Below are positions 6,160 to 64,000 of a stretch of 64,000 nt of DNA, piece by piece (position 1 is the first letter of the stretch; the number at the start of each line of letters is the position of its first letter). A program made the translations under genes and the position numbers. Below the pieces are notes generated by a model that saw only the letters and a program-made list of their open reading frames with translations, did no database searches and had not been told where the DNA came from. Source of the stretch: Ruminococcus flavefaciens (GTDB taxonomy: Bacteria > Bacillota > Clostridia > Oscillospirales > Ruminococcaceae); contig JAMPIL010000001.1 of the NCBI GenBank assembly GCA_023662725.1, positions 394,258-458,257 on the forward strand, read 5' to 3'.

Positions 6160-8406
6160 TCACACATGAGAAGTCTTTACAACTTTAATACCTATAACGG
6201 TAACATCATCGCTTTTTGAAGAAGGATTGAACACTTCGGATTTAATGCATATCTCATCAACCATTTTTTTCAAGTCGTTGCCGCTCAAAAGAAGTTCTTT
6301 TATAAAACTGTAGGCATTTTCACTGATTCCATCGGAAAACATAATAATAATGTCACCCTCCTCAAAATCATAGCTTCTTGAAAATGTATCGGACTGCTCA
6401 TAAATTCCTATAGGAAAGGTTGGCGATGAAACTTTCATAACGCTTCCCCTATGGCGGATGAGAGTGGCAGTCGCACCGGATTTTATAACGGTCAGACCGC
6501 AGTTATCGAGGTCTATCCTTACGGCATCAAGAGTTGCAAAAGATTCATCATGGGATTTAGTCAGCATAATGGAATTGATCAGCTTTATCGCCGAAGAGTA
6601 ATCCGCACCGCTGCTTATAAGACGGCGAAACATCCTTACGACTATTCTCGATTCAACAGCAGCATTCTTTCCGCTTCCCATGCCATCGGAAAGAATAACG
6701 TAGCTTATACCTGTTCCGTCGCTAAATATCATAGAAGTATCGCCGTTTTCCTTTGAATTATCTGCGCACACCGACGCACCGTAAACTTGAAGAGAATACT
6801 CCGGACGTTCAAAAAGTCTCAACCGAACCTCTTTTCCGGAGTTAACAGGATCAGCGCAATCAAGGGGAATTCTCAGCTCATCCGAAACAAGATCGCAGAT
6901 TCTTCTGATACTTTCCGGAGCGTCCTTAAAGGGAAAATAGATCTCTGCAAGGAGTCTGTTACGTGAATTATAGTAGGCAATGACGCTGTTTGTCTTAAAC
7001 CCAAATTTGCACAGTTTTGTTCTGATTATCTTGCTGATAGGCTCAGAATAACGCACATCAACACGTTCACCCGCTGCTGCTGCGACTTCCTCAATAATTT
7101 TTATCTGTTCCGAAAGAAGCTTTCTGCTCTCGGAATAACGCATCTCAAGAAGCTTTGCCGTCGCTTTTTCTCTTGCCTCTCTTTCAAATCTATCCCTGAG
7201 TTCGCTTTTGTGGAGACAATCGGTAAGTTCATAAGGAAAGCTCTCTTTTGCAAACTCAGTAAGCTGCGAAAGCTTGCGAAATCCTCTAAGCGTGCTGTCA
7301 TAATCTGTTTTCCAGCAGGAAAGCCGTCGAAAACAGCGTGAACATATCTCGTTGGAACTGTCCTCCGATTCATTTTCCTTACCGGAATTTTGTGAAAGCA
7401 TTTCCGCAATTTTCTCGGATTCTCTGCGAACATTTCCTATTGAATCGGAAAGAAAGCTCATCCGTGAGCTTAATATTTCCGGCAAAGCCGATGTGGAATC
7501 TTCTCCAATTATAACCCACTTATCTGAATAATAAGGTGCAAAAACGAGGAACAAAGCTGCTCCGCAGGCTATATTCACCATGCTGCTTACGCTATCGAGA
7601 GAAATTCCGGTAAGCATCATCATCATAAAATTCAATCCGACAAAAAAAGCGGCAGCAACATTTATTTTCTGCTTATAAAGATAACCGGTGAGAAGACCTG
7701 CCGCCGGAAGCAAAACCACAGTCATACCGCATGATGACGAGGAAAGAAACGCACCACAGGTAGTAAGCGCACCGCAAAGCACTCCTCCTGTATGTCGATA
7801 AAAGTAAGCCGCCGAAAGCGTAACTGCCGCCCCCAGAACAATGCCGATATTTACCAGAGGAAATCGTACAGAGCAAATTGAAGCCATAAGTAAAGTATAA
7901 GAAACAGCGTAAGCACATCCGGACGGAGCAGAAAGATCAACAGCTTTTTTTGTACGGAGTCCCGTTATTATCAGCGAAACTGAATAAGACGTAAAACCTG
8001 CAAGAGCTCCATAAAAAACGTAAAATATCAGCTTATATAAGACCTCGCCTATGAGCATTGAAACGGCAGCGCCGGAAACAAAAATTCCAACAAAAGTTAT
8101 AATGCCGCAAAGCCGTGGATTATTTTTAGGTTCAAGAAACATTTTAAGTATCAGAATTATAACCATTGCCGCAATTTTAACAATGTTTCTTCCAACGGTT
8201 CCGCCAATAATGCTTCTGACAAGACTCCCCGTCAGCACCGCAGCAGAAGAAGGAAGACCGAGTCCTCCCGTAAGAGCAGCATCCGCAAATGATGAAACTC
8301 CGGCCATGCTCGTTCCCGAAAGCATAAAACCTGCCGCAGCCGAAATCGTAAAAGCGCCGATTGATACTATAGCTGAATCAGTATAATTTTTTTTTACTTT
8401 TAACAT
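6160..8406 (-). CDS. spoIIE: Stage II sporulation protein E (PP2C phosphatase)
   Basis: Membrane-bound serine phosphatase that dephosphorylates SpoIIAA and so releases sigma-F in the forespore; it also interacts with FtsZ during polar septation. The first 300 or so residues are hydrophobic, with about ten membrane segments, followed by a central regulatory region and a C-terminal PP2C domain. Metal-binding aspartates are seen in SDGMGSGK (Asp574) and MFSDGISENA (Asp692). At 748 aa it is slightly shorter than the Bacillus protein. It has its own promoter carrying Spo0A-box-like sequences. Its targets, spoIIAA and spoIIAB, lie at the other end of the window. Confidence 0.95.
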   Translation of the reverse strand: MLKVKKNYTDSAIVSIGAFTISAAAGFMLSGTSMAGVSSFADAALTGGLGLPSSAAVLTGSLVRSIIGGTVGRNIVKIAAMVIILILKMFLEPKNNPRLCGIITFVGIFVSGAAVSMLIGEVLYKLIFYVFYGALAGFTSYSVSLIITGLRTKKAVDLSAPSGCAYAVSYTLLMASICSVRFPLVNIGIVLGAAVTLSAAYFYRHTGGVLCGALTTCGAFLSSSSCGMTVVLLPAAGLLTGYLYKQKINVAAAFFVGLNFMMMMLTGISLDSVSSMVNIACGAALFLVFAPYYSDKWVIIGEDSTSALPEILSSRMSFLSDSIGNVRRESEKIAEMLSQNSGKENESEDSSNEICSRCFRRLSCWKTDYDSTLRGFRKLSQLTEFAKESFPYELTDCLHKSELRDRFEREAREKATAKLLEMRYSESRKLLSEQIKIIEEVAAAAGERVDVRYSEPISKIIRTKLCKFGFKTNSVIAYYNSRNRLLAEIYFPFKDAPESIRRICDLVSDELRIPLDCADPVNSGKEVRLRLFERPEYSLQVYGASVCADNSKENGDTSMIFSDGTGISYVILSDGMGSGKNAAVESRIVVRMFRRLISSGADYSSAIKLINSIMLTKSHDESFATLDAVRIDLDNCGLTVIKSGATATLIRHRGSVMKVSSPTFPIGIYEQSDTFSRSYDFEEGDIIIMFSDGISENAYSFIKELLLSGNDLKKMVDEICIKSEVFNPSSKSDDVTVIGIKVVKTSHV

Positions 8407-8437
8407 CCAATCACCCTTAAAGAAAAATGTAATTCAT

Positions 8438-8471
8438 ATTATACCATTTTTCTTTGGCGAAGTCTGTCGAT
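8438..8471 (-). promoter_or_regulatory. spoIIE promoter with tandem Spo0A boxes
   Basis: On the minus strand, TCGACA (8470-8465) and TATAAT (8443-8438) are separated by 21 bp, with TGG before the -10. On the plus strand TGGCGAA (8455-8461) matches the 0A box TGNCGAA fully and TGTCGAT (8465-8471) matches 6 of 7; their starts are exactly 10 bp apart. The 21-bp spacer and boxes over -35 are known features of the Spo0A-activated spoIIE and spoIIG promoters of Bacillus. Confidence 0.8.
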
Positions 8472-8491
8472 TCCAGTTATCTACAACAATA

Positions 8492-62008: not shown

Positions 62009-62584
62009 TTATTTCCTTTTCTTTTTCTTCTTCCTTACAGAAAATCCAAAGTCGCCCAACTTTCTTCCAAGAGCGAAATATTCTCCGTGAGCATAAGCCA
62101 TAAGTCCGCATTGCTGAAGATTAAGCTTGCCTTTGCTGTTGATATATTTTTCATCAGCGTCTATACCGACTATTTCCGCAAGAAACATTGTATGAGAGCC
62201 AAGAAGCTCCGATTTCACGACCCTGCATTCAAGACTGACCGGACATTCCTCTATCAAAGGAACAGCGACCTTATTGGCTGGAACAAGATGAAATCCGCAT
62301 GAAGAGATCTTATCCGTATCTTTTCCGCTTTTAACTCCGCAAAAGTCTGTTTCACGGCACATTGACGAAGTTGTAAGATTGATAACAAATTCACCGGAAT
62401 CTTTGATAACGTCATGCGAAAACCGTTCCGGACGCACCGAAATATAGGTCATAGGCGGACGAGTGCAGACTATGCCTGTCCAGCCGATAGTTAAAACGTT
62501 TGGCTTTTCAATCGTTCCGCAGGTAACGAGTGCAGCAGGTACGGGAGCAAGCAAAGCGCTTCCTTTCCAGAATTGTTTTGACAT
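62009..62584 (-). CDS. Flavin reductase-like FMN-binding protein (flavoredoxin type)
   Basis: A 191-aa protein of the flavin reductase-like family. APVPAALVTCGTIEKPNVLT at the N-terminus, PPMTYISVRPERFSHDVI, and FVINLTTSSM are typical; FMN is bound and electrons pass to partners such as ferredoxin-type proteins. The Lys-rich C-terminus (VRKKKKKRK) is odd. AGGTG lies before the ATG. Confidence 0.88.
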   Translation of the reverse strand: MSKQFWKGSALLAPVPAALVTCGTIEKPNVLTIGWTGIVCTRPPMTYISVRPERFSHDVIKDSGEFVINLTTSSMCRETDFCGVKSGKDTDKISSCGFHLVPANKVAVPLIEECPVSLECRVVKSELLGSHTMFLAEIVGIDADEKYINSKGKLNLQQCGLMAYAHGEYFALGRKLGDFGFSVRKKKKKRK

Positions 62585-62677
62585 TTTTTCACCTCTGAAT
62601 AAATCAATTGCTATTTATTTTATTATAACATATAAAACAATATATTTCAAGAAATTTATTTTATATTTATCAGCGGA

Positions 62678-62711
62678 TACGACATGATTCGCAGTTGATC
62701 CATGCTATAAT
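62678..62711 (+). promoter_or_regulatory. spoIIA operon promoter with tandem Spo0A-like boxes
   Basis: ACGACA (62679-62684), 21-bp spacer, TATAAT (62706-62711), TGC before the -10. TACGACA (62678-62684) and TTCGCAG (62688-62694) match the reverse 0A box TTCGNCA at 6/7 and 5/7, with starts exactly 10 bp apart. The layout aligns without gaps to that of spoIIE at 8438-8471. Confidence 0.7.
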
Positions 62712-62736
62712 TTGGCTTATCAGGGAGGCGAATAAA

Positions 62737-63042
62737 ATGAATATAGATATAAAATCCGAAAACGGTTCTGCGATCGCAAGACTCAGCGGCGAAATTGATC
62801 ACCATAATGCCAAAGAACTTCGCACTCAGCTTGATAAGTTCATCATATCTGCGCAGCCGCCGGAACTTGTTATGGATTTCAAAAATATAACCTTTATGGA
62901 CAGCTCCGGAATTGGTCTTATTATGGGCAGAAGCAAGCTTATGAAGGAATGCGGCGGAAGGCTTGAGGTACGTAATTCACAACCATACATAAAGCGTGTT
63001 CTCAAGCTTTCCGGAATCGAAAGAATCGTAAAAATCACTTGA
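62737..63042 (+). CDS. spoIIAA: Anti-sigma F factor antagonist
   Basis: A 101-aa STAS-domain protein. VMDFKNITFMDSSGIGLIMG holds the phospho-accepting Ser57 (Ser58 in Bacillus). When dephosphorylated by SpoIIE it binds SpoIIAB and frees sigma-F. The start at 62737 has GGGAGG before it. spoIIAB begins 12 bp after its stop. Confidence 0.93.
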   Translation: MNIDIKSENGSAIARLSGEIDHHNAKELRTQLDKFIISAQPPELVMDFKNITFMDSSGIGLIMGRSKLMKECGGRLEVRNSQPYIKRVLKLSGIERIVKIT

Positions 63043-63054
63043 ATGGAGAATATC

Positions 63055-63492
63055 ATGGAAGTTATAAATGAAATAAAATTTACCATGCCGTCGCTTTCGG
63101 TAAATGAAAGCACAGCAAGAGCAGTCGTTTCATCGTTTCTGATTCAGGCAGACCCGACTGTTGAAGAACTTTCCGACATAAGAACGGCAGTTTCTGAAGC
63201 GGTGACCAACGCCGTTGTTCACGCTTACCGCAATTCTAAGGGAAATATTGAGCTTGTGGTCAAGCTGCTCGCCGGACGTGAAGTCTACATAAGGATAAAG
63301 GATAAGGGATGCGGTATCGAAGATGTTGAGCAAGCTATGCAGCCGCTTTTTACAACTGCCCCCGAAGAGGAACGTTCAGGTCTCGGTTTCTCGGTAATGA
63401 GCTCCTTCATGGACAAGCTGAACGTAAAAAGTTCATCCGGTAAAGGAACTACTGTAACTATGCGCAAAAGGCTGGCAAAACATGAAAACTGA
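63055..63492 (+). CDS. spoIIAB: Anti-sigma F factor (serine kinase)
   Basis: A 145-aa GHKL-type kinase. N box AVSEAVTNAVVHAYRN, G1 box KDKGCGIEDVEQA and G2 box ERSGLGFSVM are intact. It binds sigma-F and phosphorylates SpoIIAA. The start at 63055 has GGAG 6 bp before it. It overlaps sigF by 11 bp. Confidence 0.95.
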   Translation: MEVINEIKFTMPSLSVNESTARAVVSSFLIQADPTVEELSDIRTAVSEAVTNAVVHAYRNSKGNIELVVKLLAGREVYIRIKDKGCGIEDVEQAMQPLFTTAPEEERSGLGFSVMSSFMDKLNVKSSSGKGTTVTMRKRLAKHEN

Positions 63493-64000
63493 CGTAAAAC
63501 AGCCGACAGCAGAAGAAAACCTCGGTCTTGTACATTTATGTGCAAATAAATTCAGAGGACGTGGGATCGAGTATGACGAGCTTTACTCGGCTGGCTGCAT
63601 CGGACTTCTTAAAGCAGTTAAAGCATTTGACGCTGAACGAGGCGTAAAATTCTCAACATATGCTGTACCTGTGATCTTAGGCGAAATAAAACGTCTTTTC
63701 CGTGACGGCGGAACAGTTCATGTAAGCCGTAGCTTAAAAGAGCTTTCGCTTAAAATCCAGCGTATCTGCGAGGATTTTCGTCAAAAAGAAGGCAGAGAAC
63801 CCGTCATAAGCGAACTTGCCATTCTTTCCGGAGAGAGCGAAGCCGACGTTTCAGAAGCCCTTTGCGTAAGTCAGCCGACGCTGTCGCTCACCGCAAGCGA
63901 CGATGATGAGGGTCAAATAGATATCCCCTCTGAATCGCCTGACGAATCCATCGTAGATCTTCTTGCACTGCGTCAGATCATGGCAAAACTTGAACCTAAC
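63482..64000 (+). CDS. sigF: RNA polymerase sigma-F factor (partial, runs off the window)
   Basis: The first 173 codons of a sigma-70 family protein, open to the window end. Region 2 reads YDELYSAGCIGLLKAVKAF and FSTYAVPVILGEIKRLFRD; region 3 has PVISELAILSGESEADVSEA. It is the third gene of spoIIAA-spoIIAB-sigF and overlaps spoIIAB, as in other spore formers. The end of region 4 is not in the window. Confidence 0.94.
   Translation, partial: MKTDVKQPTAEENLGLVHLCANKFRGRGIEYDELYSAGCIGLLKAVKAFDAERGVKFSTYAVPVILGEIKRLFRDGGTVHVSRSLKELSLKIQRICEDFRQKEGREPVISELAILSGESEADVSEALCVSQPTLSLTASDDDEGQIDIPSESPDESIVDLLALRQIMAKLEPN

Follow-up and report, generated by a model that had tools for sequence, protein, structure and literature searches.

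A putative Spo0A-activated sigma-A promoter at spoIIA in Ruminococcus flavefaciens and its relatives

Stage II promoters in described systems and at the spoIIA and spoIIE loci

In Bacillus, spoIIE and spoIIG are transcribed from sigma-A promoters activated by Spo0A~P, and spoIIA from a promoter that uses sigma-H together with Spo0A. Promoters of the former class have a 0A box over the -35 position, a second box 10 bp away and a spacer of 21-22 bp (22 bp in spoIIG); a 21-bp spacer is one that sigma-A polymerase should not use unaided. A TATAAT preceded by an extended TG is a sigma-A signature. For C. difficile, published reports describe a mapped SigH promoter at spoIIAA (PMC7438776), transcription of spoIIAA by sigma-H holoenzyme under Spo0A, and a sigma-A promoter with GTGACA and TATAAT at spoIIGA (PMC3789822). 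Bacillus and C. difficile share control of spoIIA by sigma-H and Spo0A, which is also the prevalent form in our phylum sample outside the order (family, order and phylum are here Ruminococcaceae, Oscillospirales and Bacillota). Among the titles and opening abstracts searched, which cover few subscription papers, we saw none reporting that sigma-A controls spoIIA in this group, nor did we find a published experiment on the question for its members.

The stretch of DNA analysed (the window, 64,000 nucleotides) has the spoIIA operon at its end, on the plus strand. The operon comprises spoIIAA, for the anti-sigma-F antagonist (62737-63042; TIGR02886, 100.7 bits, cut-off 114.75), spoIIAB, for the anti-sigma-F factor (63043-63492; TIGR01925, 186.9 bits, above the cut-off of 135), and sigF (63482-64000), which continues beyond the end of the window (its full length in the genome is 219 aa) and whose in-window part scores 138.8 bits on TIGR02885 (cut-off 321.45). 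On the minus strand, spoIIE occupies 6160-8406 and matches a sole sporulation family, TIGR02865 (258.5 bits, cut-off 490.8). Although SpoIIAA and SpoIIE fall below the curated cut-offs, these models are the best families for each.

Upstream of spoIIAA, a putative 0A box TACGACA (box 1, 62678-62684) overlaps a -35-like element and is followed 10 bp further on by a weak 0A-like box TTCGCAG (box 2, 62688-62694, with TTCGC at 62688-62692), the TG of an extended -10 (62703-62704) and an exact TATAAT (62706-62711) placed 21 bp past CGACA. A short leader, in which we read the ribosome-binding site AGGGAGG (62722-62728), separates the -10 element from the start codon at 62737. The corresponding elements upstream of spoIIE, on the minus strand, are putative boxes ATCGACA (8465-8471), also overlapping a -35-like element, and TTCGCCA (8455-8461, with TTCGC at 8461-8457), a TG (8445-8446) and TATAAT (8438-8443), again 21 bp past CGACA. 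Both sites conform to the composite CGACA-N3-TTCGC-N10-TGN-TATAAT (62680-62711, plus strand; 8438-8469, minus strand), and the weight-matrix matches discussed below span 62674-62713 and 8436-8475. The gapless alignment of the two promoters put forward in an earlier sequence-only reading, with 21 bases from CGACA to TATAAT in both, is correct in its letters and coordinates. The same reading held the spoIIA boxes to be the weaker ones, at 6/7 and 5/7; the first figure stands, while box 2 reaches 5/7 solely against TTCGNCA, with the fifth base free, and 4/7 against TTCGACA. The GACA of box 1 is invariant in the seven sequences compared. Box 2 is degenerate in relatives, the letters at its position being TTCGC in L429 and L433, ATCGC in L430 and TTTTT in L434, and mostly TTTTTA at the spoIIA sites of the family. 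Because box 2 is weak, contact of Spo0A at this box is less sure.

With a box over the -35 position, a weak 0A-like sequence 10 bp off where the class has its second box, a spacer of 21-22 bp and a TATAAT-like -10 element, the promoter resembles those of Bacillus spoIIE and spoIIG and of C. difficile spoIIGA. Unlike in Bacillus and C. difficile, where spoIIA is under sigma-H, the Spo0A/sigma-A class would here drive spoIIA too. We consider it probable, at roughly 0.87, that spoIIA has here a Spo0A~P-activated sigma-A promoter belonging to the spoIIE/spoIIG class and that the order has most probably replaced sigma-H at spoIIA. On the sequences compared, spoIIA of this bacterium and of many relatives appears to depend, like spoIIE and spoIIG, on Spo0A together with the housekeeping sigma factor.

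Recurrence of the composite element in the genome, the family and the order

The exact composite occurs twice in the 3.11-Mb genome (70 contigs), only at spoIIA and spoIIE, as the genome-wide motif search suggested in the sequence-only reading has now established; at up to 3 mismatches there are 8 matches genome-wide vs 2 for a reversed control. Since the two sites had themselves supplied this pattern, a fair test calls for a matrix built from other genera. Over both strands of the window, that matrix ranks spoIIE first (25.5) and spoIIA second (25.0), with the third match at 11.8 and maxima of 12.4-17.7 in five shuffles. Chance matches are not numerous in a larger scan either: 464 kb (the window with the neighbouring 400 kb of the chromosome) contain four sites above 22, at yqeG-aroQ (29.4), spoIIE, spoIIA and spoIIG (23.8), compared with a maximum of 15.2 in one shuffle. 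The fifth site (19.3) lies within an ORF and does not precede a gene start. The strongest of these matches, yqeG-aroQ, precedes no recognised sporulation gene, which counts against our reading; it is a possible further Spo0A target. It lies on the minus strand (L010 1501-1532; G000:C11:665119-665150), and from the protein sequences we take the gene after it to be yqeG-like and those further on to be aroQ-, prolidase- and efp-like.

That two sigma-A promoters merely look alike by chance is hardly credible in view of these ranks and shuffles and of the enrichment at a particular spacing in 91 spoIIA and 90 spoIIE regions, described below, which contradict it statistically. What can be said for coincidence is that the half-motif CGACANNNTTCGC, present exactly 2 times in the window, is not enriched there at up to 2 mismatches (40 vs 54.2 in shuffles); the half-motif with mismatches is, however, uninformative.

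The family sample comprised 119 genomes of 118 genera, of which 97 have SpoIIAB above cut-off. Six of these 97 were left out, and the 91 spoIIA regions used consist of the bacterium's own, 30 automatic loci (the matches with the highest scores) and 60 fetched ones. The 91 spoIIE regions are made up likewise (own, 30 automatic and 60 fetched) and were drawn from the 109 genomes in which anything matched; the dyad test used 90 of them, one being too short. In this de novo test, which counts spaced trinucleotide pairs and presupposes no motif, GAC-N22-TAT was the top dyad for spoIIA (40/91; 1.75 expected) as well as for spoIIE (35/90; 1.1 expected). Addition of two family loci from the order sample brought the family spoIIA regions to 93. 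When spacers of 14-28 bp were scanned, 45 of these 93 regions had the element at 21 bp and 1-9 at every other spacer; for spoIIE the counts were 43/91 at 21 bp and 1-14 elsewhere. A minor second peak at 26 bp (9/93 for spoIIA, 14/91 for spoIIE) counts against the reading. The element is thus broader than the sequence-only reading held, being enriched at both spoIIA and spoIIE throughout a 118-genus family sample, with a like architecture at spoIIG.

A matrix trained on spoIIE sites of other genera was then applied to spoIIA, with a 99% threshold passed by 1% of shuffles. In the family 65/93 spoIIA regions pass and 0/93 of their reverse complements do. The order sample of 48 spoIIA regions included two from the family, leaving 46 from other families, 26 of which pass; the regions below this threshold (28/93 in the family, 20/46 in the order) count against the reading. 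For the phylum outside the order, 70 loci were taken (30 of them the best SpoIIAB matches) and one without a recognisable spoIIAA was removed; here 2/69 pass. At a 95% threshold the family reaches 73/93 and the order 32/46, against a background of 12/69 in the phylum set (3.5 expected) and 9/93 among family reverse complements (4.7 expected). The 21-bp spacer was found in 1/69 phylum regions outside the order, and GAC-N22-TAT in 10 of the 48 order regions (1.1 expected) and in none of the 69 in the phylum set (1.6 expected). One locus of another order in the same class (L327), among four phylum loci with a sigma-H score below 10, scores 20.2 for Spo0A/sigma-A, and the switch may therefore predate the order.

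Further public loci, mostly from metagenome bins with Ruminococcus, Oscillospiraceae or Clostridia in the title, were considered as the best 80 listed, which gave 78 usable regions, 74 of them new. They are relatives of the training genomes and so represent new sequences, not an independent lineage. Among these best 80 listed, 59 of the 74 new regions pass for Spo0A/sigma-A and 2/74 for sigma-H. The same set includes a spoIIA region of R. flavefaciens YRD2003 (27.4), weak passes in R. bromii ATCC 27255 (10.5) and Caproiciproducens faecalis (6.4; threshold 6.2), and Acutalibacter sp. 1XD8-33, whose spoIIA fails the Spo0A/sigma-A threshold.

The sigma-H promoter at spoIIA and the SigH protein

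Upstream of spoIIA in the phylum set, the dyads that rank highest de novo describe a sigma-H promoter (GCA-N0-GGA in 37/69, AGG-N18-GAA in 40/69), and GAC-N22-AGG (16/69) shows a 0A box at a fixed distance upstream of it; where there is a 0A-like box, it most often ends 21 bp upstream of AGGA (8 loci). The second of two sigma-H matrices trained on the phylum, with gap 17 left out as it had 3 sites only, finds a spoIIA site in 59/69 phylum regions, 1/46 order regions and 7/93 family regions. Cross-validation in two halves gave 42/69, 0-1/46 and 2 and 4/93, respectively, so the figure of 59/69 is partly due to self-training. There is a slight excess of sigma-H-like matches at family spoIIA (7/93 vs 0.9 expected). 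Strict AGGA-GAAT with gaps of 18 and 19 occurs in 1 and 0 of the 93 family regions and in 15 and 11 of the 69 phylum regions. Compared with sigma-H spoIIA promoters, those of the order mostly lack AGGA...GAA and have TATAAT instead, with the box at the -35 position. In relation to C. difficile and to the sigma-H loci of the phylum, the operon is the same and the input from Spo0A would have been kept.

In the bacterium's own spoIIA region, the last 200 bp before spoIIAA have best scores of 2.2 and 2.0 with two phylum-trained sigma-H matrices, vs 13.3-30.8 for the 25 phylum sites listed for the first matrix. A sigma-H promoter upstream, which would have spoken for the Bacillus scheme, was accordingly not found there. 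Across the 464 kb the sigma-H matrix yields no clear excess (12 vs 5 in the shuffle above 14, 4 vs 2 above 16 and 0 vs 1 above 18). It may be asked whether a second spoIIA promoter, for sigma-H or another factor, lies farther upstream, so that the Spo0A/sigma-A element is one of two inputs. Bacillus spo0A is reported to have two promoters (PMC12090719), and in the family both matrices score at 3 of the 93 spoIIA regions. Such an arrangement is improbable at the present locus, where spoIIAA and the divergent gene upstream of it (62009-62584) are just ~150 bp apart and the sigma-H scores are as low as stated.

The phylum outside the order mostly has sigma-H at spoIIA, hence we infer that the order most probably exchanged it for Spo0A/sigma-A. 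The contrast in sigma-H sites between the phylum set and the order and family sets given above also favours what the sequence-only reading had proposed, namely that a single promoter type may serve the whole sigma-F checkpoint, a rewiring of the Bacillus scheme.

The SigH protein itself appears altered in the group. TIGR02859 matches above its cut-off of 294.8 bits were found in 177 of the 199 genomes in the phylum sample, which include two from the order, in 0/117 order genomes (7 of them family; best 193) and in 0/119 family genomes (best 164). The SigH-like protein encoded in the present genome scores 77.6 bits in six-frame translation and 84.3 bits as a protein, both under this cut-off, and its best SigH-type model is NF006147 (91.5 bits vs a cut-off of 212). 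Missed cut-offs are not peculiar to SigH, as SpoIIE (0/119) and SpoIIGA (0/29) of the family miss theirs as well; SpoIIAB (97/119) and Spo0A (26/29) pass. In comparison with SigH as modelled by TIGR02859, this is an intact SigH-like protein, encoded beside a CxxC gene, that scores far under the curated cut-offs. Of 60 loci fetched from the family and the order, 58 have the same CxxC gene (66-83% identical) next to the sigH-like gene, and 59 of the 60 SigH-like proteins align to our own with 24-44% identity; these loci are the best-scoring matches and thus a biased choice. The conserved neighbour and the alignment indicate that the gene is probably orthologous and fast-diverging and, the own copy being intact, no pseudogene in this genome. 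For the same reason a role of sigma-H is still conceivable. A genome survey counts sigH among the genes present in every spore former of the bacilli and clostridia (PMC3533761), and sigma-H has been reported for R. bromii (PMC5814915); the portions of both papers available do not address the divergence of SigH or its targets.

One possible consequence of this persistence is that a diverged SigH-like sigma changed its specificity and now reads the TATAAT-type composite, which would keep sigma-H control under a new consensus. The sigH-like genes do persist at a fixed place, and the own gene is intact. The composite, however, also precedes spoIIE and spoIIG, which are of the sigma-A type elsewhere, and TATAAT with the extended TG is the sigma-A signature. 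Moreover, a genome of the same genus rated 100% complete (G019) keeps the spoIIA site (score 23.2) although none of its TIGR02859 matches is better than 1.6e-10; this speaks against SigH having learned a new motif, with the qualification that the protein may be too diverged to match. We therefore regard a respecified SigH as unlikely and prefer the Spo0A/sigma-A promoter.

A wider reading is that sigma-H was removed from the start of sporulation throughout the order: with spoIIA in the Spo0A/sigma-A class and no sigma-H site upstream of spo0A in the family, entry would be left with one transcriptional input, and a freed SigH ortholog would be evolving fast towards another task. We hold this tentatively, at slightly less than even odds; it is weakened by SpoIIE and SpoIIGA also falling below cut-offs and by the spo0A count given below (0/25), which comes from family regions alone. 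A switch to one Spo0A/sigma-A class across the order would explain how SigH could diverge while the spoII genes remain, and the picture of sporulation entry built on Bacillus and C. difficile would not transfer to Ruminococcus-like gut bacteria. Such a switch predicts that spoIIA is on without SigH and off without Spo0A.

As to the surroundings of the sigH-like gene, a CxxC zinc-ribbon-like gene stands beside the divergent sigH-like gene at L003 1444-2413, and in some loci there are nearby genes that we take to be DUF1858-like and trmK-like. A sigK-like ORF (L004 1417-1752; G000:C33, ~3 kb from the contig end) stops after 111 codons, with other ORFs next to it, and is either a skin-like interruption or a broken gene.

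A proposed common Spo0A input to the stage II operons, and features of the spoIIA leaders

The own spoIIG site, TATGACA-N3-TTTTCAG-N11-TATAAT, likewise has a 21-bp spacer. Among spoIIG regions of the family the composite is present in 14/22 and a sigma-H site in 0/22. Regions upstream of spo0A have the composite in 4/25 and a sigma-H site in 0/25, these being family regions alone with no comparison set from outside the order. The three classical stage II Spo0A operons, spoIIA, spoIIE and spoIIG, thus share one promoter architecture here, and the description of spoIIA as a Spo0A-type sigma-A promoter like that of spoIIE agrees with the top ranks of both sites under the held-out matrix.

From this architecture and its enrichment we infer that Spo0A~P may bind at the -35 position, through the CGACA box, with weaker contact at box 2, and that it would hold sigma-A polymerase there, the 21-bp spacer being one that the polymerase could not use by itself. 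Because of that spacer, transcription would wait for Spo0A~P at the boxes. On arrival of Spo0A~P, spoIIA, spoIIE and spoIIG would be opened together, and sigma-F with its regulators, the activating phosphatase and pro-sigma-E would all start from one input.

The genome encodes two Spo0A proteins above cut-off, both of which read SRVERAIRHAIE, presumably the Spo0A DNA-recognition helix. Their genes are at L427 1492-2253 (G000:C3) and at L419 (G000:C11:256859-257584). The one on C3 follows an ORF that by eye resembles an integrase, and its receiver domain has LVSPF where that of the other copy has LLKPY.

Two features of the leaders were seen in passing. A terminator-like hairpin, with a perfect stem of 11-12 bp and a T-rich tail, is present in 11 of the 66 family spoIIA regions scoring at least 8 (0.15 expected from shuffles), and its left arm extends to the -10 position (L016, L024, L029, L040, L110, L113, L117, L129, L131, L136 and L148). 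It may terminate transcription that arrives from upstream, with the transcript of the promoter itself escaping. A GGACAAGC/GGACAGGC motif recurs in the spoIIA leaders of the family (e.g. L119, L020, L025 and L162), between the promoter and spoIIAA or close to the -10 element, with GGACAAGC lying near many family spoIIA promoters.
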